DNA of 64,000 nucleotides, taken from NCBI RefSeq assembly GCF_005377625.1, contig NZ_CP040098.1, positions 3,213,279-3,277,278 on the forward strand. The letters are read 5' to 3'. Positions 22,151 through 42,143 of the stretch are shown here, one piece after another. Within the stretch, counting starts at the first letter, position 1. Every line of letters begins with the position of its first letter. The position numbers and the translations under genes were made by a program. The notes under the pieces were generated by a model. That model ran no database searches. It saw only the letters and a program-made list of their open reading frames with translations, and had not been told where the DNA came from. The stretch is from Desulfoglaeba alkanexedens ALDC. GTDB lineage: Bacteria > Desulfobacterota > Syntrophobacteria > Syntrophobacterales > DSM-9756.

Positions 22151-25081
22151 TCAGGACGGTTGCTCCCGGCCGGCGGCCTCGGGGACTTTCGCCTCCTGCC
22201 TCCGGTCCTCCGAGCGGATTCTCAACCCCACCGGGAGCGATTCACCGAAGATCCAATTCCATTCGGAGGCGTCGAGGGAGTGTGAGGGATCGTTGAGCAG
22301 GGCCAGTAAGCGGGCACTCCCCGATGGGAGTTTTTCCAGCCGAGCGGCCAGCACGTTTCGATCGTTTTCGGAAACGTCCCGGGCGCGGTCTCCGGTGAGC
22401 CGCACCATGTGGATGAGCGCGTGCGCCGCCTGCTCGTCGGGTTCGGGGTGCGCTTCCAGGAATCGCCGCATCCACGCCGCAGCCTCCCGTGCGGGGACCA
22501 CCCGGTCCAGTGGGCCGTAGACAGGGACTCGGGAACCGATCCGGCTGAGGGTCCAGAGTTCCTGCGGACGCGGCTTTCTGGCCGCGAGCCGCTCAATCAT
22601 GGCACGGCCCAGGACGGTCTTGGCATCCACCGGCAGCCGTTCAAAGCTTGCCAGCATCATCCAGACTTCCAGCTCTTCCTGGGGGCTCACCTTGAGTCCC
22701 GGCTTCCTCCCCGCTCGCCTAGCCTTTCCTTCCGGAGGCAGCACCGACGGAGCCACCTGCTGGTATATGTGCCATTGCTGGCCGGCCGTCAGTCCACCGG
22801 AAACGCGACGCCAGAAAATCCACCATTCGTTCCGGCACTGGAGGTTCCTGTGGAACTTCACGCCTTGGGGATAGAGCTTCCACACCTCTCTCATCCGCCA
22901 TTCGTCCAGCGGGTCGCCGAAACCCGGGCGCAGGCAGTAGCCCAGGATGTTCAGCCAGCGGGCTTCGTGCTGCGGCGTGAGAGCGCGCTGATCGCGGCAT
23001 TCGAGCAGGCTGTCCGCGAGTTTCCGGATGAGGGACGTGGGCCATTTTTCCTTGGGAAGATCGAGAATGGAGACCAGGGTTTTGAGCAGTCCTTCCGGGC
23101 GGGATCCAACGGCTCCCGCCTTTGACGGGCGGAAGGTTTCCAGGACGGCCCTGCGGGCCGCGTCGATGAGGGACACGTCAAGCGTTTCGCCCGGCTGCGG
23201 CTCCACGGAATCGGCCTGCCGGCGCACATCGAACTGGAGCTCCCAGCGGTGAGGGCTCCGCAGCGACTGGCACCATAGTTCCAGGGTTCCGATTTCGTTC
23301 AGCCGCACGCCGATCCGAACGGGAAGGGTCTGAGCCTCACCCTTCCTGCCATATTTGAGAACCGTGCGGATGGGCGGCAGCACGGTGATTTCCTCCTCCG
23401 CCGGTTCCGTTACTTCGCCCTGGCGGTCGCCGAGCCGCGTGCTGGAACTGAAGAGCTGAAAGGCCGCCGGCTGATTGGCGAGGACTTCGAAGACGGGAGA
23501 TTCCAGTTCGCTTTCGTAGCCTTCTTCGGTTCCCCGCGGCACCAGGCACACCGCCTTTCGGTCACCGGCGCCTTCGGATTCGGAAGCCTCAGCCGATGCC
23601 ACAGCCACATAATACGCCCGGGGACTTCCGGCTCCCACTCGGACCCCTTCGCCCAGCCGCACCAGCCCGTAATAGGCGGCCCCCAGGCTCACCGCCAGAT
23701 CCGGATGCGGGTTGGAAAGCTCCTCGGGGAGCCAATCCGCTCCCGCTTCCTTGCGGAACCAGGATCCCACCGTTTCCCGGAGGCGCCGCCGGATCCGGCC
23801 TGGAATCAGAGCACCGCCGTTGAAGAGAACGAAGTCGGGAAAAAGGACGCTTCTGCCCGTCTCCCGCCGCACCAGGTCCAGGTGCTTTCTCCAGAAGGCC
23901 GCCAGATGATGCGTCACCGCCGGATCCTGGACATAAGGAAGCCCCCACTCGGTGATGCCGGTTCGACGACCTCCCTTGGGACGAATGTCCGGCGGGCAGT
24001 AAGGGAAAAAACCCTCGAGGATCCATTCTTCCACTTCCTCGACCGTAAGGGTCCCCTTGAGGGTCCCGGCGATGAGTTTCCCGCCGACTCCCATGACGGT
24101 CACGTCCATGGACTTGGTAGAGGTTTCCGCGGTAATGAGCGTCTCCTTGGCCCTGCGGCACTGGTGACACAGCTGGTGCCACCGCCTGGCATCGAGGGAT
24201 CCGGGTTTTCCCAGAAGGCGCATTTCGAGCCGGCGCGCCACGGTGAGGTCCATGTTGTCGCCGCCGAGCATGAGGTGGTCGCCGACCGCCAGTCGATCGA
24301 AGCGCAGGCCCTTCTCGCCGGAACGTACCGTCACCAAGGTGAAGTCCGTGGTGCCTCCTCCCACGTCGCAGACCAGGATCAACTGGCCCGCCGTCATCTG
24401 CGACCGCCAGGTGCCTTCGTTTCGGGAAAGCCAGTCGTAGAAGGCGGCCAGAGGTTCTTCGAGAAGGATGACCCTTGGCAGGCCGGCTTTCCGAGCCGCC
24501 TCCACGGTGAGTTCCCGGGCCACTTCATCGAAGGAGGCCGGAACGGTGAGGAGCACCAGCTGGTTTTCCAGGAAGGCCTCTTCATCGCCCCCGGCCATGA
24601 CATGGTTCCAGGCTTCCCGGATGTGCTGCAGGTAGCGGCAAGCCGCCTCCACGGGCGACACCCTGGGCACGTCGTCCCCCGCGCCCCAAGGCAGGATGGG
24701 CGCAGTCCGGTCGACGCCCCCGTGGCAGAGCCACGACTTGGCGGAAGAAACCAGGCGGCCGGGAACCAGCGCCCCTTGTTCCCGAGCGAATTCACCCACC
24801 ACGTAATCGCGATCCGGATCCCAGGGGAGTGCGGCGGCGCCTTCCGGCAGATCGTAGGCCCCGGGAAGATACAGGAAGGATGGAAGGATCGTTCGACGCT
24901 TCACCTCGCCGGGATTCACCAGCTGCGGGACTTCAAACACGCGGAGCCTTCGCCTCGCCCCTTCCGTCGCTTCACCTTTCAGCGAGGCGTAGGCTACGGC
25001 CGAATTGGTGGTTCCCAGGTCGATGCCCACCACGTAACGGTGCAGAGGAAAATCACCCCCGTTTCCACCTCTTGTCGTCAT
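22151..25081 (-). CDS. large divergent Hsp70 with C-terminal DUF3731-like region
   Basis: Protein of 976 residues. Residues 15-480 form an Hsp70 ATPase domain with intact nucleotide motifs: GIDLGTTNSAVAYA (phosphate 1), LVCDVGGGTTDFTLV (phosphate 2) and NGGALIPGRIR (adenosine). The following 120 residues replace the usual substrate domain. The last 350 residues are Trp/Arg-rich and helical (LNILGYCLRPGFGDPLDEWR, then WIFWRRVSGGLTAGQQW), matching what is annotated as DUF3731 behind Hsp70 domains. No EEVD-like tail or J-domain is present. It follows the shorter Hsp70 by 16 bases and probably works with it. Confidence 0.85.
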   Translation of the reverse strand: MTTRGGNGGDFPLHRYVVGIDLGTTNSAVAYASLKGEATEGARRRLRVFEVPQLVNPGEVKRRTILPSFLYLPGAYDLPEGAAALPWDPDRDYVVGEFAREQGALVPGRLVSSAKSWLCHGGVDRTAPILPWGAGDDVPRVSPVEAACRYLQHIREAWNHVMAGGDEEAFLENQLVLLTVPASFDEVARELTVEAARKAGLPRVILLEEPLAAFYDWLSRNEGTWRSQMTAGQLILVCDVGGGTTDFTLVTVRSGEKGLRFDRLAVGDHLMLGGDNMDLTVARRLEMRLLGKPGSLDARRWHQLCHQCRRAKETLITAETSTKSMDVTVMGVGGKLIAGTLKGTLTVEEVEEWILEGFFPYCPPDIRPKGGRRTGITEWGLPYVQDPAVTHHLAAFWRKHLDLVRRETGRSVLFPDFVLFNGGALIPGRIRRRLRETVGSWFRKEAGADWLPEELSNPHPDLAVSLGAAYYGLVRLGEGVRVGAGSPRAYYVAVASAEASESEGAGDRKAVCLVPRGTEEGYESELESPVFEVLANQPAAFQLFSSSTRLGDRQGEVTEPAEEEITVLPPIRTVLKYGRKGEAQTLPVRIGVRLNEIGTLELWCQSLRSPHRWELQFDVRRQADSVEPQPGETLDVSLIDAARRAVLETFRPSKAGAVGSRPEGLLKTLVSILDLPKEKWPTSLIRKLADSLLECRDQRALTPQHEARWLNILGYCLRPGFGDPLDEWRMREVWKLYPQGVKFHRNLQCRNEWWIFWRRVSGGLTAGQQWHIYQQVAPSVLPPEGKARRAGRKPGLKVSPQEELEVWMMLASFERLPVDAKTVLGRAMIERLAARKPRPQELWTLSRIGSRVPVYGPLDRVVPAREAAAWMRRFLEAHPEPDEQAAHALIHMVRLTGDRARDVSENDRNVLAARLEKLPSGSARLLALLNDPSHSLDASEWNWIFGESLPVGLRIRSEDRRQEAKVPEAAGREQPS

Positions 25082-25097
25082 GACGCGTTCACCCAGA

Positions 25098-26909
25098 TTA
25101 TGATTCAGATTCCCTCAGGTTGAATTCGAGCTTCCACCGCCGTTCGTCTTCTCGCGAGACGCACCAGATTTCCAGGGTTCCCACCTCGGTGAAGGCGCTT
25201 TCCAGCCAGACCGGGATGACGGTCCCGCCGGCGTCCTCGGACGATATCGGAAGGTGAGTTTCCATGCTCACCACTTCGTCGATTTCTCCGGACCAGTCTT
25301 CCACCACGTCCCCCGGCCGGTCTTCCTTTCGGGAACCGGAAGCGAGCAGCGGAAACACGGCGTCTTCCCCGACCACCAGGCCGAATTCCTTCTCGCGGAT
25401 CACCTCCCGCGTGCCCTCTTCCATGCCGAACGGCACGACGCACAACGCCTTGATGGGGGTCGGGACTCCGGGAACAGTCGGCATGGCGGATTCGATCCCT
25501 ATGTAGAAACTCCGCGGAGCCCCCGCGCGGATTCGAACGCCATGCCCGTGACGGGCCAGCCCGTAAGCGGCGGCGCCCCGGGCCACCGCAAGGTCCAGAT
25601 CGGGAGATTCCAGACGGCGGAGCGGTTCCCCGCCGCGCCACCGGGAAAGGAGGGTCACGACACGTTCCCGAACGATTTCGGGCTTCATCACACCCCCGTT
25701 GAAAAGCACGCCCGTCGGGCACGCCTCCCCGGGTTTTTCTCCGGAACCCTGCCGCGACAGAAACCGGGCCAGGTGCCGGGTCACCGCCGGGTCCGATTCG
25801 TAGGGCAACCCCATTTCGCGGACCCCGACCTTGGGCCGGCTTTGAGGAAAGTCGTCCGGGCCGCAAAGCGGGAAGAAACCTTCCAGAAGGATGCGGGTCG
25901 CTTCCTCACGGGTCAGTTCCGTTCGCAACGTGCCGCCGATCAACGACGAGCCTCGCCCCAGCACCACGATGGGTTCCGTCTCCCGGTTCGGGTCCGTGAG
26001 GAGCCGTTCCTTGGCGGTACGGCAGGCATGCCACAGCCCTCGGAACTGCCAGCCGTCCAGGCGAACGCCTCTTTCGCCCAACTTCGCCTGAAGGGCGTAG
26101 GCCAGGGTGAGGTCCATGTTGTCGCCGCCCAGAAGAATGTGATCGCCCACGGCCACGCGCCGGAGAACCATCTCCCCGTGTTCTTCTTCCACCCGGATCA
26201 GGCTGAAGTCCGTCGTGCCGCCGCCGAGGTCGCAAACCAGCACGCAATCGCCGACTGATACGTTTTTTCGCCAGCGGTCGCCCTGCGATTCGATCCAGGC
26301 ATAAAAAGCGGCCTGGGGTTCTTCCAACAGGGTCAGGCGTTCCAGCCCGGCGGCCTCGGCTGCTTTCACCGTGAGTTCCCGGGCCACCGCATCGAAGCTT
26401 GCGGGAACGGTCAGGAAGATTTCCTGAATTTCCAGGCGGGCCGAGTCGTCTTCCTTCGCATGAGTGTAGTTCCATGCATCGCGGAGGTGCCGCAGGTAGC
26501 AAGCGGTGGCTTCCAACGGAGACACGCGGCGCGCCTCGGCCGGACTGTCCCACGGGAGGATGGGTTTAAGGCGATCCACCCCGCTGTGGCACAACCACGA
26601 CTTGGCGGAAGAAACCAGGCGGTTTGGAATCTCCGCCCCCCGCTTCCGGGCGAAGTCACCGACGGCGTAGTCGATCCCTTTGTTCCAGGGCAGGGCAAGC
26701 CCGCCCTCTGGGACGTCGTGGGGCCCGGGGAGGAACAGGAAGGATGGAAGAAGCGGCTGAGAGGCGACTTCCCCCGGAGCCGTAAGCTGCGGGACGGGAA
26801 AAATGCGGATTTGCGGCTCATCCCACTGGTTTCGAGGAACAGGGGCATAAGCCAGGACGCAATGGGTGGTTCCCAAGTCGACTCCGACCACGTATTTCGG
26901 CTGAATCAC
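25098..26909 (-). CDS. divergent Hsp70 family protein
   Basis: Hsp70-type protein of 603 residues starting at GTG 26909, chosen because TTAGGAG lies five bases upstream and the next residues MIQPKYVVGVDLGTTHC fit the family N-terminus. The nucleotide motifs are intact: DLGTTHCVLAYA, LVCDLGGGTTDFSLIRV and FNGGVMKPEIVRERV. The region after the ATPase domain is only about 130 residues. No substrate-binding lid is recognisable, so it is not a DnaK orthologue. It is clearly paralogous to the adjacent 976-residue protein: both share LVSSAKSWLCH and near-identical spacing. DUF2760 lies upstream. Confidence 0.88.
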   Translation of the reverse strand: MIQPKYVVGVDLGTTHCVLAYAPVPRNQWDEPQIRIFPVPQLTAPGEVASQPLLPSFLFLPGPHDVPEGGLALPWNKGIDYAVGDFARKRGAEIPNRLVSSAKSWLCHSGVDRLKPILPWDSPAEARRVSPLEATACYLRHLRDAWNYTHAKEDDSARLEIQEIFLTVPASFDAVARELTVKAAEAAGLERLTLLEEPQAAFYAWIESQGDRWRKNVSVGDCVLVCDLGGGTTDFSLIRVEEEHGEMVLRRVAVGDHILLGGDNMDLTLAYALQAKLGERGVRLDGWQFRGLWHACRTAKERLLTDPNRETEPIVVLGRGSSLIGGTLRTELTREEATRILLEGFFPLCGPDDFPQSRPKVGVREMGLPYESDPAVTRHLARFLSRQGSGEKPGEACPTGVLFNGGVMKPEIVRERVVTLLSRWRGGEPLRRLESPDLDLAVARGAAAYGLARHGHGVRIRAGAPRSFYIGIESAMPTVPGVPTPIKALCVVPFGMEEGTREVIREKEFGLVVGEDAVFPLLASGSRKEDRPGDVVEDWSGEIDEVVSMETHLPISSEDAGGTVIPVWLESAFTEVGTLEIWCVSREDERRWKLEFNLRESES

Positions 26910-27020
26910 AATGACTCCTAACTTGACCACCGGAGCGCGCCGGGCCGCCCGGAAGCGTTCCCGCCGTCGGCCCATCGCCGCAGCCCCGGAGCGTTCTCCT
27001 TGCGGCTCATACGCGATCCG

Positions 27021-27818
27021 TCAATCGGTCGCCCCAACCTCCACCTCGGCCGGCGCGACGATTCTTTCCTTCTCCACGTGCGCTGTGATCTGGGGCAGCC
27101 GGAGCCGCCTCACCCGCCAGCCCCGGTGCCGGAGAATCCCCTGAAACGGAGGATCCCCCGTCACATTGCCGGTCAGGCGAACAGCCGCCGCATCGAAACC
27201 CTGAGACACGGTCACCGAGGCCCCTTCTTCATCCTTGAAAATGGGCTCCAGTTCCACGGTTTCCCCCAGGGCCGACCGGCACCCTTCGTGGATGCTTCGC
27301 ACGGCGGCGCCGATCTGCGCATCTTCGTAAAGGGAAAGATCTTCGTTCAGGAAATCGATCAGACGCCCCTCACGCTGAAAGACGGACAACATCAGAACGG
27401 CTCCTACGGACTTTGGATCCACATCCGCGGGAAGGGAATCCGCGGCCTTCATTTCCGCAGGTTCCGATTTCTTCAGGGATTTTTCCGGCGCCACGGCGGA
27501 TTCGAGCCCTTTGCCCGCCTGGCGCCGCGCAATCCCCTGGGCGACGATCCAGAGGAGGAACGTGGCTGCACCGCCCACACCGAAAACAGCCGGCGCCAGG
27601 TAACGTTCCAGCAGGGTGGTGTACGCCTTCAGATTCTCGAGCCCGCTTCGCACCTGTTGGGGAAGTTCAGGACCTTCAGCGGAGATCAGCGGTTCCACCC
27701 ACGCGTTGACTGTGGTGAGCACTTCCCGGCCGGCCAGGAAGAAGGCGGCCAGAAGCGCGCCGTTGAAAACCAGGCAGACCAGCACCAATTGAAATGAGAT
27801 CCTCCCCTTGTTTGTCAT
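27021..27818 (-). CDS. DUF2760 membrane protein
   Basis: Protein of 265 residues with two predicted transmembrane helices (about residues 8-28 and 75-97) and a soluble C-terminal domain. That domain has the DUF2760-like core LMLSVFQREGRLIDFLNEDL, followed by YEDAQIGAAVRSIHEGCRSAL. ATG 27818 is preferred because GAGGAG is eight bases upstream; a GTG at 27827 and ATG 27824 are also in frame. It is the first gene of the module with two Hsp70-like genes, 111 bases upstream of the first. It could be a membrane docking site or client adaptor for these chaperones; that role is inference from context. Confidence 0.85.
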   Translation of the reverse strand: MTNKGRISFQLVLVCLVFNGALLAAFFLAGREVLTTVNAWVEPLISAEGPELPQQVRSGLENLKAYTTLLERYLAPAVFGVGGAATFLLWIVAQGIARRQAGKGLESAVAPEKSLKKSEPAEMKAADSLPADVDPKSVGAVLMLSVFQREGRLIDFLNEDLSLYEDAQIGAAVRSIHEGCRSALGETVELEPIFKDEEGASVTVSQGFDAAAVRLTGNVTGDPPFQGILRHRGWRVRRLRLPQITAHVEKERIVAPAEVEVGATD

Positions 27819-28037
27819 TCCCATCACTCCTCAAGCTTCGGTTCATACGCAGAAATCCGTCCGAAAGATCAAGGCCGTAAAGTAATCCAATCTCCCCCGT
27901 CGAACAAGGGACGAGTCTCGACGGGAGCGAGTCAAAGGTCCGGCGCGGCGGCCGCCGCCCGCGTGCTCGCAACCCCCGCGGAACGGCCCGGTCCGCCGGC
28001 GAGGGAGGGGACGGATGCGGGAGGAACTGCCGGGGGG

Positions 28038-31115: not shown

Positions 31116-31420
31116 ATTTTCCCGCTGGAGACCATTGCTCTTCTGTTCATCCCGCTTCATTCCCTGTCCTTCCCTGTAGGAACCGGGGATCCGCATCATT
31201 GTGGGAGGCCCGCCCTCGGGCCGATGGGGCGGGGCATTGGGCTGTGTGCATCAAGCTAAGCGCATGACGCCTCAATCAGGCGGTCAACAACCTCGGAGCG
31301 CGGGCGTCCCGCCCGCAACTCTTAGTACAGGTCGACTTAATAAAGTGCCCGCTATGCAGCAGTCTTCAGTGGGTGAACATAAGCCATGATCTTTGCTACA
31401 GAGAAGGAATGAGCGTTTCC

Positions 31421-31882
31421 CCTCGTTCCCAAGCTCCGGCTTGGGAACGGCCTCATGGGAATCGAAGCTGGAGCTTCTGCACAGTTGTGTTCCCAAGCTG
31501 AAGCTTGGGAACAAAGTGGAAATTCTATTTCCCCTCCCCTTGTGGGAGGGGATTAAGGGGAGGGGGGAGAGGGGGACTTTTTGATCTTCGTTAACTTTTG
31601 CCCTCGTTCGCAAGCTCTGACTTGGGAACGGCCTCATGGGAATCGAAGCTGGAGCTTCTGCACAGTTGTGTTCCCAAGCTGAAGCTTGGGAACAAAGTGG
31701 AAATTCTATTTCCCCTCCCCTTGTGGGAGGGGATTAAGGGGAGGGGGGAGAGGGGGACTTTTTGATCTTCGTTAACTTTTGCCCTCGTTCCCAAGCTCCG
31801 GCTTGGGAACGGCCTCATGGGAATCGAAGCTGGAGCTTCTGCACAGTTGTGTTCCCAAGCTGAAGCTTGGGGACAAAGTGGA
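31421..31882 (-). repeat. 181-base tandem repeat, about 2.5 copies
   Basis: Units begin at 31421, 31602 and 31783, each with a CCTCGTTC start, so the period is exactly 181 bases. The first two units are nearly identical and the third stops after about 100 bases. Each unit holds a GTTCCCAAGCT palindrome, a GAAGCTGGAGCTTC palindrome, a second CCCAAGCTGAAGCTTGGG palindrome and the CCCCTCCC...GGGAGGGG inverted repeat. The same parts in reverse order and strand occur at 10.5 and 46.2 kb. Confidence 0.88.
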
Positions 31883-31999
31883 AAGCGCCCGCGCTCCCAA
31901 GTCCACTGCAGGAGAGACGCCTGTGCTCCCAGGGCCGAACTCTTCGTGGCCGCTACCTTAGCTCGATGCATATGGGGCATTAACGAACCTCATCAGGGT

Positions 32000-39966: not shown

Positions 39967-40011
39967 GGTTTGAGGGCGGTTTGCGAACTTTGGGATCTTC
40001 CCGGGTCCTGC

Positions 40012-40040
40012 TTGACAGCGACCCGGAAAGGATGTATATG
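40012..40040 (+). promoter_or_regulatory. sigma-70-type promoter of tRNA-Ala
   Basis: TTGACA (40012-40017) and TATATG (40035-40040) with an optimal 17-base spacer, ending 14 bases before the tRNA. Confidence 0.82.
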
Positions 40041-40054
40041 TCGCAGGAAAAATC

Positions 40055-40130
40055 GGGGATGTAGCTCAGCTGGGAGAGCGCAGCCTTCGCAAGGCTGAGG
40101 CCACGGGTTCGAATCCCGTCATCTCCACCA
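40055..40130 (+). tRNA. tRNA-Ala (CGC)
   Basis: Complete cloverleaf with encoded CCA. Acceptor GGGGATG/CATCTCC, D stem GCTC/GAGC, anticodon stem CAGCC/GGCTG with loop TTCGCAA (anticodon CGC), and T stem ACGGG/CCCGT. An integrase remnant follows 210 bases downstream. Confidence 0.97.
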
Positions 40131-40340
40131 CAATGATATTCAACCGCGTCTGATGCGGTAGAGAAAGCTGCGAAAATAAAGACGTTTTTGGGGCTTTTTA
40201 GTTTCCTTTCGTCTTGACAAGTCTGTTGATATCCAAGGTATTTGGGGGGTATTTTTGAGCGCATCCAGCGCGGGGTTGAAACCAATGCCCCCATATTCGA
40301 GTCAGCTAACCGAAAACACTGAAAAAACCTGAAGTGCTAC

Positions 40341-40511
40341 ATGGCTTTGAGCGACACCAAAACCCGCAACGCCAGGGCTGGGGCGGCGTCCTATCGCCTG
40401 TTCGACGGCGGCGCCTTGTACCTGGAGGTTAGCCCCGCCGGCGGCAAGCTGTGGCGCTTCAAGTACCGTTTCAACGGTAAGCACAAAACCTCGAAAAGAG
40501 CAACGCCATGA
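40341..40511 (+). pseudogene. truncated tyrosine-recombinase (P4-type integrase) N-terminus
   Basis: Frame of 56 residues beginning MALSDTKTRNARAGAA, followed by LFDGGALYLEVSPAGGKLWR and FKYRFNGKHKTSK. This is the arm-type DNA-binding domain (DUF4102) of P4-family integrases, which normally continues for about 350 more residues. Here it stops at TGA 40509, and the catalytic RHRY domain is absent from the downstream sequence. Location just past a tRNA 3' end, reading away from it, is the classic position of an island integrase. The element is therefore probably a decayed insertion. A matching second attachment site was not found by eye. Confidence 0.8.
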
Positions 40512-40661
40512 GAAGAGTGGTTCAGACCTTTATAATTCTGATTGTCTTCTTACTTGATGGAGTTTCCCCGCTCTATCAACACTGGTCTCGCCCAAGACTC
40601 TTGCCGAAAACTTGACTAGGGTGTAAGAGCGACTTTGAAGCCGCTGAGGGGGTCGCCGGCA

Positions 40662-40976
40662 ATGACTGGTTCAAAAGGGAACACGCGGAAAAGCACACCC
40701 TACGTGATTCGTAAGAAATCGGCGGAAGCCAAACCGCCGGTTCAAAGCAAGCCGGCAGTTGAAAGCAAGCCGGCTGAAAGCAAATCACAGCGTCCGCGAA
40801 ACATCGAACCTGATCAATCGCTTGAAGGGAAGAATATACGCCTGTGGCTGATGCCGTCAGGCAAGGCTGTGGATGGAGTGATGGAAAGGGTTGCTGTCTA
40901 TACGGTGGTCCTACGGCAAGGCACAGGTCCGCAGGTCGTTTATAAACACGCGATAGAACGCATAGAAGAAGCGTGA
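40662..40976 (+). CDS. Hfq-like (Sm-fold) protein with disordered N-terminal tail
   Basis: Protein of 104 residues from ATG 40662 (GAGGGGG upstream; TTG 40635 is an in-frame alternative). Residues 1-50 are Lys/Pro/Ser-rich with a short repeated SKPAVESKPAESK pattern. The last 50 residues align with Hfq: LEGKNIRLWLMPSGKAVDG corresponds to Sm1 and PQVVYKHAIERI to Sm2, whose YKHAI box is the hallmark of Hfq. It differs from canonical Hfq in lacking the N-terminal helix sequence and in carrying the long tail on the wrong side. It lies next to the integrase remnant, so it may be island-borne. Binding of RNA is inferred only from the fold match. Confidence 0.6.
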   Translation: MTGSKGNTRKSTPYVIRKKSAEAKPPVQSKPAVESKPAESKSQRPRNIEPDQSLEGKNIRLWLMPSGKAVDGVMERVAVYTVVLRQGTGPQVVYKHAIERIEEA

Positions 40977-41192
40977 ACGGTCATGTATCGTTTTTTTTCT
41001 TTCAAGCACTTACAGAGGCTTCGGAAATTGCTGCTTTTCAGTCCACTTCATTTGCTTTCAAAAACAGCGCCTTTTCAAGCGGCACAAAGAATTGCTGATA
41101 CGGTTCCGGTTCCGTAACTGGTATATAATTCCTCCCAGATTCCGGACAGCATGTTAAGCTTATTTTGAGGTTTCGAATCAAGTGGATTTTTC

Positions 41193-41336
41193 ATGCAGGA
41201 AGACGAGATCTGCACCCAGCGGCTTAAGACAAGATTTGACAAACCTTCCATCGAGGAAAGGATTAGGAAAATCAGTACAGAAAACAATATTGAACAGTCA
41301 ACAGTTGCTTCTTTGCTGATAGAGTATAAAATTTAG
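41193..41336 (+). CDS. hypothetical 47-residue protein
   Basis: Short frame starting MQEDEICTQRLKTRFDK and ending VASLLIEYKI, highly charged and probably helical. The ribosome site (AGTGGA) is weak. It lies in visibly AT-rich DNA between the Hfq-like gene and the two-helix membrane protein. No family was recognised. Confidence 0.3.
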   Translation: MQEDEICTQRLKTRFDKPSIEERIRKISTENNIEQSTVASLLIEYKI

Positions 41337-41349
41337 TATAAGGCTCAGA

Positions 41350-41697
41350 ATGATGGAATGCATTAATAAGAGTAAAGCAAATCGGTTTGGAACATTGCTC
41401 ATAATCATTGGGGCCTTCATTCCTTCAGTATTATATCCTCTGTCATCTTTATCAAATTCAGCGACCTTAACAAAAGCTGCGTTTGCCATGAAGGGCGTAT
41501 CTTACAACCCAAGCATACGAGATCTTGAAATAGTACTTATGGAAGGAGAGTGGAAAAAGGATAGCATAAATCCTGGTGGGCATTATGAAGGTAGGATTGC
41601 TATTCCATACAGATATACTCTCGCATTTGGAATACTGATTGCCTTTATCGGAGTTGGTATTGTTTTATTTCACGAGGATAAAAAGGAACCTGGTTGA
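41350..41697 (+). CDS. hypothetical two-helix membrane protein
   Basis: Protein of 115 residues with hydrophobic helices at about 13-33 (FGTLLIIIGAFIPSVLYPL) and 88-107 (YTLAFGILIAFIGVGIVLF), joined by a 50-residue polar loop that should be extracytoplasmic. AAGG lies upstream of ATG 41350. Codon use is AT-rich, unlike the flanking core genes, which fits acquired DNA. I do not recognise the family. Confidence 0.55.
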   Translation: MMECINKSKANRFGTLLIIIGAFIPSVLYPLSSLSNSATLTKAAFAMKGVSYNPSIRDLEIVLMEGEWKKDSINPGGHYEGRIAIPYRYTLAFGILIAFIGVGIVLFHEDKKEPG

Positions 41698-42143
41698 TTG
41701 TATAACAACGGTTCGGCACCCAGGGGGGTAGGGGGGGGCGCCAAGTACAAGATGCTTCAACGGTCCGCCGCTGGGCTTCGACCGCCGCAGTAGGTATACC
41801 GCAGTGCGCTTACTTGACCGCCAAGGCAGATTGATTGCGCGCTCAGGTTTAGGCCCAGAGGAAGAAAATTCAGACATTTTCAACCGAGCAGCCAACTCAA
41901 TACGAGTCCACATGAAAGCCCTCATGGAGCTCGAGATCCATGGCGGTTTCCAGTTTTTCATAAATTATGACTAAGGTGACACCAAATTTACACCCATCCG
42001 GGTTAAACATTTCGGCAAACAAAGCGAATACTCGGCGTGAAGAAAGGAGGTGACGGAAGGGAAGCAACGTGAACCCTGTCCCAGGTGTTTCGCCGGCACC
42101 GGCGACGGGATGGACGCAAACCTGACAAAATAAGGAGAACACA
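41698..42143. other. intergenic region with ORF remnant
   Basis: About 446 bases. It has a G-rich tract (41721-41738), a frame open from 41732 to 41974 (see 41804-41974), and then the upstream region of the Spy-like gene. A 27-codon frame (42050-42133) ends in the ribosome site of that gene; it is mentioned only as a possibility. Confidence 0.5.
41804..41974 (+). other. possible small gene or gene remnant
   Basis: Frame open from 41732 to TAA 41972, with GTG 41804 as first plausible start (56 residues). The translation around AVRLLDRQGRLIARSG and EIHGGFQFFINYD looks protein-like rather than random, and it precedes the start, as if the front of a gene were missing. No family was recognised. 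Confidence 0.25.

Follow-up and report, generated by a model that had tools for sequence, protein, structure and literature searches.

DUF2760 and a DUF3731-bearing Hsp70 as core partners of a candidate bacterial Hsp70 machine in Desulfoglaeba alkanexedens ALDC

The DUF2760 protein and the DUF3731-bearing Hsp70 of Desulfoglaeba alkanexedens ALDC are genetically obligate partners. Together with a second Hsp70, they are encoded by three consecutive minus-strand genes (Table 1) of the 64-kb stretch of DNA that was analysed (the window), and the sizes and order originally predicted for these genes were confirmed. The 603-aa Hsp70 is termed here Short, and the 976-aa Hsp70 with DUF3731 is termed Long. 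DUF2760 and the Hsp70s very probably form one functional system, which is likely to work as a chaperone and not as some other ATPase switch. The more specific reading, a dedicated Hsp70 machine apart from DnaK in which DUF2760 is a GrpE-like exchange factor, has about an even chance of being correct.

Table 1. Genes and domains of the DUF2760 locus (positions in the window)
Feature	Positions	Strand	Basis
DUF2760 protein, 268 aa, GTG start	27021..27827	(-)	Pfam PF10816 E 2.3e-49; AF2 mean pLDDT 86
DUF2760 N-terminal membrane hairpin, residues 6-111	27495..27812	(-)	AF2 helices 6-48, 57-111
DUF2760 conserved domain, predicted cytoplasmic, residues 138-268	27024..27416	(-)	Family alignment, AF2, GrpEL1 structural alignment
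Short Hsp70, 603 aa from GTG; open frame extends to 26975	25098..26909	(-)	PF00012 E 7e-15
Short linker and substrate-binding beta domain, residues 456-603	25101..25544	(-)	Homology to Long domain; linker consensus
Long Hsp70, 976 aa	22151..25081	(-)	PF00012 E about 7e-15; PF12531 (DUF3731)
Long substrate-binding beta domain, about residues 477-630	23192..23653	(-)	AF2; Foldseek
Long DUF3731 alpha-solenoid, residues 636-955	22217..23176	(-)	PF12531 E 1.3e-84 at residues 702-954; AF2

Distribution and core of the system

Among 336 genomes sampled from three phyla, DUF2760 was found in 35 and DUF3731 in the identical 35, including genomes in which the genes lie apart. Neither occurs alone in any of the three samples: they share the same 18 of 148 genomes in Desulfobacterota, the same 15 of 148 in Planctomycetota, and the same 2 of 40 in Calditrichota. 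The probability of such an identical set arising by chance in one large phylum is about 1e-20 or less, kinship being ignored. In whole genomes picked from DUF2760 loci, DUF3731 was found in 14 of 15, even when unlinked; the exception is a draft genome with DUF2760 and Short, without DUF3731. DUF2760 lies directly before an Hsp70 gene in 49 of 53 loci. The joint system proposed originally stands, as random association of the genes was tested across genomes and was not seen. The spread is patchy (54 of 395 Desulfobacterota genomes), and the DUF2760/Long system is also found in Pseudomonadota. None of the papers searched names DUF2760 or DUF3731 or assigns a role to the set.

Seven genomes, including the complete Desulfosarcina widdelii chromosome, keep DUF2760 and Long and are devoid of Short. 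Because Short is missing from these genomes, the Short/Long pair is not the core of the system; the core pair is DUF2760 and Long. An Hsp70/Hsp110-like pair had been proposed originally; in this arrangement Long would serve Short as exchange factor or holdase, with DUF2760 as an anchor only. As the core of the system, it was rejected on the genomes devoid of Short. This arrangement would agree with the presence of neighbouring paralogues of unequal length stemming from one ancient duplication, with the three genes being found in order in 23 of 53 loci, and with the armadillo-like fold of DUF3731, as in the HspBP1/Sil1 exchange factors (PMC12987570). It is nonetheless improbable, since the Short-less genomes retain DUF2760 and Long, even if DnaK may be a partner there, and since Long has a complete set of the ATPase and interdomain residues found in Short. 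The likeness to Hsp110/Grp170 is that of a longer Hsp70 paralogue, with a C-terminal extension, adjoining a shorter one; unlike these, Long persists without Short, and its extension is an armadillo-like solenoid.

The Short and Long Hsp70s

Short and Long are paralogues across the whole of Short (46% identity, hhalign E 9e-193), as expected from the original prediction, and Short sequences (n=66) are monophyletic in the tree with a support of 0.925. Both belong to the Hsp70 superfamily by their nucleotide-binding domain (NBD) motifs, catalytic residues, and substrate-binding beta domain, PF00012 (HSP70) covering only part of the NBD (E about 7e-15). They do not fall in the DnaK subfamily, scoring 36-54 bits with the NCBIfam DnaK equivalogs vs cut-offs of 648-1019, and they are not HscA either (TIGR01991, 74-81 bits vs a cut-off of 708). 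No HscC model came up among the NCBIfam matches. Conservation was counted over 38 Short relatives and an alignment of 28 Long relatives. The phosphate and adenosine motifs, already noted as intact, are so in both Hsp70s, and the equivalents of DnaK D8, T11, K70, E171, D194, T199, D201, and K270 are invariant in both families. The equivalents of the interdomain residues P143 and R151 likewise show no variation across the 38 Short and the 28 Long sequences. Judged from these alignments, Short and Long keep the residues of ATPase activity and interdomain coupling.

Other positions have diverged. At the J-domain-docking site, R167 is replaced by T, V, or I, N170 by an invariant E, T173 by Q or L, and Q378 by Y or F; in DnaK, R167 and Q378 are bonded by D35 of the J-domain (PMC8215388). 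Because these residues are replaced, an ordinary DnaJ-type partner is not expected. The cluster is without DnaJ and without a recognisable GrpE gene, as first described. The hydrophobic linker VLLLD of DnaK is replaced in both Hsp70s, GHGVRIRAGAPRSFYIGIE standing in Short in place of DnaK VLLLDVTPLSLGIE. The cleft salt bridges of DnaK (K55-E267 and R56-E264) are not conserved. They are also absent from HscA, where their absence accompanies a fast, GrpE-free release (PMC8215388), which speaks against a GrpE-like exchange factor here. Unlike in NEF-free HscA, where the lobe IIB loop is deleted (PMC8215388), this loop is present in Short and Long, and is conserved in a family-specific form, a point in favour of an exchange factor.

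Both Hsp70s had been described as lacking a normal substrate-binding region, and this description was not confirmed. In the AF2 model of Long residues 474-976, the top Foldseek PDB matches of the beta domain are the substrate-binding domains (SBD) of DnaK and BiP (E 2.6e-4, probability 1.00), and the Short beta domain was recognised through its homology to Long across that domain. What is abnormal is the linker, the end of Short, which stops after the beta domain without an SBD-alpha lid, and the lid site of Long. There, DUF3731 is modelled with helices only (pLDDT mostly >85), as an armadillo/HEAT-like solenoid at the position held by the lid in DnaK. VIA-align comparison with armadillo proteins yields Z up to 13.9; helical repeats may reach such values through their arrangement alone. 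An hmmscan of 28 SBD-DUF3731 members, with E up to 10, returned no GrpE, HEAT, or Arm family. The models of Long place an armadillo-like solenoid behind a predicted client-binding beta domain of the DnaK kind. The HspBP1/Fes1/Sil1 exchange factors, whose armadillo fold binds lobe II of Hsp70, also tie an armadillo-like fold to an Hsp70; unlike them, the DUF3731 solenoid is fused to its Hsp70 and forms a separate sequence family.

The DUF2760 protein

Two hydrophobic segments are found near residues 13-31 and 76-94 of DUF2760 (hydropathy peaks of 2.6 and 1.9), in line with the two-helix membrane protein announced from the sequence, and the charge pattern suggests that both ends of the hairpin are cytoplasmic. 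A membrane anchor fits the window protein and nearly all DUF2760 proteins of Desulfobacterota. Among 18 Planctomycetota members, however, 14 are without any hydrophobic segment and none has two. The membrane helices, as predicted from hydropathy, are lineage-specific, and the idea of a membrane docking site is retained for the window and nearly all Desulfobacterota, not for most of the Planctomycetota proteins. In the AF2 model, the C-terminal domain displays helices 138-154, 156-161, and 171-190, followed by seven short strands. Its motifs are YEDAQIGAAVR, the most conserved stretch, GFD, RHxGW, and a C-terminal APAEVE. DUF2760 is a candidate dedicated co-chaperone, either an exchange factor or a J-substitute.

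Most of the best 50 structural matches of the DUF2760 model span the membrane hairpin only; the three that lie over the C-terminal domain are GrpE/GrpEL1. The VIA-align Z values to 9bls, 9blt, and 9a81 (7.0-7.3) are below the trust level, in a range that the tool calls common; the GrpEL1 alignments cover 122 residues for 9bls_B (Z 7.1, rmsd 7.6) and 117 for 9blt_B (Z 7.0, rmsd 5.6). Profile comparisons with hhalign involved 85-114 DUF2760 and 30-40 GrpE sequences, including divergent Desulfobacterota GrpEs, with shuffle and decoy controls. The best local alignment runs in register along the GrpE wing, pairing GFD with FDP, GW with GY, and IAPAEVEI with LRPAxVxV, and is not significant. The probability is about 1% (E 0.03-0.1), and 115 of 400 column-shuffled profiles reach an equal score. 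The wing loop aligned with GFD contains GrpEL1 D171-P172, which contacts Hsp70 (PMC11685456). None of 61 DUF2760 domains matches PF01025 (GrpE) at E 10 or better in hmmscan, nor HEAT or Arm, and the DUF2760 profile retrieved no relative and no GrpE chain among PDB sequences. GrpE homology could not be established on sequence grounds, as the profile comparisons are not significant.

DUF2760 shares with GrpE/GrpEL1 the order of helices then short strands, the order of the FD, GW, and PAxV motifs, and the site upstream of hsp70: each of the two recognised grpE genes of the genome immediately precedes its hsp70, and DUF2760 is placed likewise. It differs from them by a wing with an additional strand and loop, and by the membrane hairpin or short N-terminal segment that replaces the long dimer helix. 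A GrpE-like nucleotide exchange factor is the most probable role of DUF2760, at about even odds. Alternatively, DUF2760 might replace a J-protein or serve as a membrane receptor, bringing the Hsp70s to their clients and stimulating ATP hydrolysis via its invariant YEDAQIGAAVR helix. With the J-docking residues replaced, some other ATPase stimulator would be needed; the cluster has no J gene, the putative stimulating helix is the best conserved part of DUF2760, and a precedent exists in DjlB/DjlC, the membrane-anchored J-proteins of HscC (PMC8215388). This role is rather unlikely, as no J-domain likeness is seen in sequence or, among the matches listed, in structure, and the matches spanning the domain are GrpE.

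The proposed machine and its place among bacterial Hsp70s

In the exchange-factor reading, Short and Long would go through ATP cycles with clients bound in their beta domains, and the DUF3731 solenoid would either stand in for the missing lid or select clients. DUF2760 would be the machine's own co-chaperone, its C-terminal domain docking on the NBD. It would most likely act in a GrpE-like manner, the wing-like sheet opening the cleft so that ADP and client are released; with an anchored DUF2760, as in this window, release would occur at the inner face of the membrane. Such a partner may be a membrane-tethered exchange factor. For eukaryotic factors, the idea that localised exchange could release clients at a chosen site has been under discussion; in the case of E. 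coli GrpE, it has met with counter-arguments (PMC8215388).

The DnaK-DnaJ-GrpE machine resembles this system in its invariant NBD catalytic residues, in the SBD-beta fold of Long, and in the partner gene directly upstream of hsp70. It differs in the residues that dock J-domains, in its linker and the salt bridges of its cleft, in its SBD-alpha lid, absent from Short and giving way to DUF3731 in Long, and in its GrpE, as which DUF2760 is not recognisable by sequence. HscC (with DjlB/DjlC) and HscA (with HscB) are likewise specialised, sporadic bacterial Hsp70s, and HscC also has partners that tie it to the membrane (PMC8215388). Unlike here, however, their partners are J-proteins, and neither DUF2760 nor DUF3731 is recorded alongside them. 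An assembly or signalling ATPase devoted to one client, and not a general chaperone, would be a scaffold switching one membrane or cofactor process on and off, as HscA is for IscU. This reading would fit the patchy spread, the presence of an ordinary dnaK-grpE in the same genome, and the loss of the cleft salt bridges, as in HscA (PMC8215388). It is improbable, as no conserved neighbour is fit to be the client, and carriage of the trio on a conjugative plasmid would be odd for a single-client factor. A conserved client gene beside the trio was rejected, the recurrent neighbours being lineage-bound and reflecting lineage-level synteny only.

Bacterial Hsp70 biology has been presented as three machines, DnaK, HscA, and HscC (PMC8215388). 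To these, the DUF2760 system adds a set obligately co-inherited in at least three phyla, which would apparently be independent of ordinary J-proteins. It might, tentatively, represent a further class beside them, with a diverged GrpE-like DUF2760, whose membrane anchor belongs to one lineage while the protein is soluble or peripheral elsewhere, a lost J-docking site, and one Hsp70 to which an armadillo-like solenoid is fused where the lid would be.

No CIRCE element, the mark of HrcA/CIRCE heat control, occurs within the window. A reading as a defence system was rejected, the PADLOC match being at chance level only. The trio of DUF2760, Short, and Long is also present on a conjugative plasmid, and one plasmid copy of the DUF2760 system is surrounded by defence genes.

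Gene arrangement and neighbourhood

In the genome of Desulfoglaeba alkanexedens (Desulfobacterota, a single contig of 3.37 Mb), the gene of a DUF2760 protein (PF10816, 268 aa) is followed by those of two Hsp70s, "Short" (603 aa) and "Long" (976 aa, with DUF3731, PF12531). Their coordinates agree with the three consecutive minus-strand genes of the original prediction, and gaps of 111 bases (DUF2760/Short) and 16 bases (Short/Long) make this trio operon-like. The closest loci among those found are from Desulfacinum (DUF2760 identity of 51-53%). The flanking genes, a DUF401 permease upstream and a DegT-type aminotransferase downstream, were left out of the system because the adjacency of DUF401 is repeated in close relatives only.

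Genes of the trio, in window coordinates
Feature	Position	Strand	Order
DUF2760	27827-27021	minus	first of three successive genes
Short Hsp70	26909-25098	minus	second gene
Long Hsp70	25081-22151	minus	third gene

An RNB-domain ribonuclease of ~670 aa lies immediately upstream of DUF2760 in four Desulfobacterota loci (L034, L056, L060, L062), and a relative is found near an unlinked Long in a fifth (L065). Elsewhere in the window, two overlapping minus-strand open frames at 31284-31980 encode a nearly identical peptide (KVNEDQKVPLSPLPLIPSHKGRGNRISTLFPSFSLGTQLCRSSSFDSHEAVPK), indicative of a direct DNA repeat situated within a few kilobases of the trio, and the G+C content drops to 0.48 at 40001-42000, versus ~0.61 elsewhere.

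Co-occurrence, core pair and spread

DUF2760 and DUF3731 occur in identical genome sets in the three phyla sampled: 18 of 148 genomes in an even sample of Desulfobacterota, 15 of 148 Planctomycetota and 2 of 40 Calditrichota, with no sampled genome holding just one of them. By simple counting, which kinship weakens and does not abolish, the chance of identical sets is ~1e-20 or less per large phylum, and 1e-19 for Desulfobacterota counted by genus. The association thus exceeds chance, and the random distribution against which the original prediction was to be checked is not seen. It also extends to unlinked genes: DUF3731 is present, nearby or elsewhere, in 14 of 15 whole genomes reached via DUF2760 loci, many of them entered from loci without Long, the sole exception being a draft (G154). 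Directly downstream of DUF2760, an Hsp70 of the Short/Long family is found in 49 of the 53 loci, as Short then Long (23), Long alone (8) or, in the stretch seen, Short alone (18, several truncated by contig ends).

The core of the system is DUF2760 plus Long. Seven genomes possess both with Short absent genome-wide. Two of the drafts among them reach a completeness of 99%, and Desulfosarcina widdelii is represented by a complete chromosome; incompleteness could explain the missing Short in drafts, and the D. widdelii chromosome is the firm case. Short and Long are paralogous, as first proposed, with 46% identity along the whole of Short. All Short sequences (66/66) fall in one clade (support 0.925), and the duplication is therefore old and predates the spread across phyla; the placement of the root between Short and Long has a low support (0.475).

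The system is also found on secondary replicons and plasmids, one of them conjugative, of Burkholderia, Caballeronia, Comamonadaceae and Bradyrhizobium, Pseudomonadota being sampled via plasmid records only. On plasmid pCC829_3 of Bradyrhizobium barranii (L076), the full trio follows a MarR-type regulator and adjoins conjugative-plasmid trb genes, and the system is therefore able to move between hosts. Plasmid pTs485 of Candidatus Thiodictyon syntrophicum (L078), which has no Long, carries DUF2760 and Short amid genes annotated as anti-phage and toxin-antitoxin.

Bacterial Hsp70 machines have been reviewed as three types (PMC8215388), and a survey of prokaryotic and Myxococcus Hsp70s does not, in the part covered, set a DUF2760/DUF3731 system apart (PMC8265645). 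Neither domain name nor Pfam number was found in 5.39 million open-access papers, subscription journals falling mostly outside this set; the domains are already catalogued, and their joint system is undescribed to the extent searched.

The Hsp70 motor, beta domain and solenoid

Residues were matched to E. coli DnaK by a profile alignment and a second alignment. No variation is seen among 38 Short and 28 Long sequences at the equivalents of catalytic D8, T11, K70, E171, D194, T199, D201 and K270 or of interdomain P143 and R151. In contrast, the DnaK linker VLLLDVTPLSLGIE is replaced by G(V/I)R(I/V)xxGxxRSYYIGIE, the J-domain docking positions are changed (R167 to T/V/I, N170 to invariant E, T173 to Q or L, Q378 to Y/F), and the residues of the cleft salt bridges are missing (R replaces K55, and an invariant R replaces E267). 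The lobe IIB loop, the "GrpE signature" that HscA has lost by deletion (PMC8215388), is retained and strongly conserved in a form of its own, GRGSSLIGGT or MGxGSxLIAGT. In two loci, Long lies within an open frame of 1471 codons (L075:9524-13936) or 1515 codons (L055:3436-7980), which probably results from overlapping open reading in G+C-rich DNA rather than from a fusion.

Structurally, residues 474-976 of Long are predicted (mean pLDDT 81) as a nine-strand beta domain followed by an all-helical domain. A normal substrate-binding region was initially said to be lacking; this was wrong at the fold level, the best PDB matches of the predicted beta domain, undetected by plain Hsp70 sequence profiles, being the substrate-binding domains of DnaK and BiP (Foldseek E 2.6e-4, probability 1.00). 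For the helical part, structural alignment to armadillo proteins gives Z up to 13.9, which may reflect the helical-repeat arrangement only, and it is thus termed an armadillo/HEAT-like solenoid, with no claim of homology. Independently, eight loci that have Short but no Long contain, as third gene, one for a separate HEAT-repeat protein of ~295 aa (assigned by Pfam in four, E 1e-17 to 1e-23), overlapping Short or a few bases away (L019:4747-5658, L020:9187-10071, L025, L034, L037, L041, L048, L060). An alpha-solenoid partner thus seems to recur in this machine. In the most likely mechanism, ATP binding and hydrolysis by the nucleotide-binding domain (NBD), whose residues are present, would open and close the beta domains on a client, which the solenoid of Long would hold or guard in the lid's stead.

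The DUF2760 protein and its comparison with GrpE

The DUF2760 model (mean pLDDT 86) comprises a helical hairpin (6-48/57-111) joined by a disordered link to a conserved domain, in which three helices and seven short strands are predicted. Its description as a membrane protein holds for the window, where the hairpin is membrane-like, as it is in 58 of the 65 Desulfobacterota/Calditrichota proteins, but not for the family as a whole: no hydrophobic segment is found in 14/18 Planctomycetota and 3/4 Pseudomonadota proteins, and the defining feature is therefore the C-terminal domain, not the anchor. Many of the proteins devoid of this segment start with a short helix-like stretch, e.g., MGRLGLAFGTFF, which might bind membrane surfaces.

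DUF2760 may bind the NBD and reset it by nucleotide exchange, a step that has an even chance of being correct and that would take place at the membrane in D. alkanexedens. In a second-look structural alignment, most of the 50 matches listed cover the hairpin; three cover the conserved domain, namely GrpEL1 in complex with mortalin (9bls_B, Z 7.1, 122 residues; 9blt_B, Z 7.0, 117 residues) and GrpE of E. coli (9a81_A, Z 7.3, rmsd 23), Z near 7 being within noise on the tool's own scale. Shared elements are the order last helix, strand, F-D loop, strand, strand, G-(W/Y), strand, and a C-terminal (I/L)-x-P-A-x-V-x-(I/V). Unguided hhalign places them in register, with a score not above shuffled profiles (matched by 115 of 400) and comparable to decoys. 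The GFD of DUF2760 aligns to the D171-P172 loop of GrpEL1, a wing contact with Hsp70 (PMC11685456). Since these sequence and Z tests are within noise, and no DUF2760 member tested matches the GrpE family, DUF2760 was not classed as GrpE, and GrpE-like action is rated as evenly balanced. Gene context helps it somewhat: DUF2760 directly precedes Short, as grpE directly precedes hsp70 in the canonical grpE-dnaK and divergent grpE-hsp70 operons of the same genome. Alternatively, and less probably, DUF2760 would replace the J-protein, stimulating and targeting the NBD, whose J-domain docking positions differ from those of DnaK, instead of exchanging nucleotide.

The same genome harbors a second specialised Hsp70 set (L136, contig 1, 1193000-1203500), an operon-like row of a TPR-like protein, a diverged GrpE (296 aa, Pfam E 7e-18), a third Hsp70 (582 aa) and a SEC-C protein.
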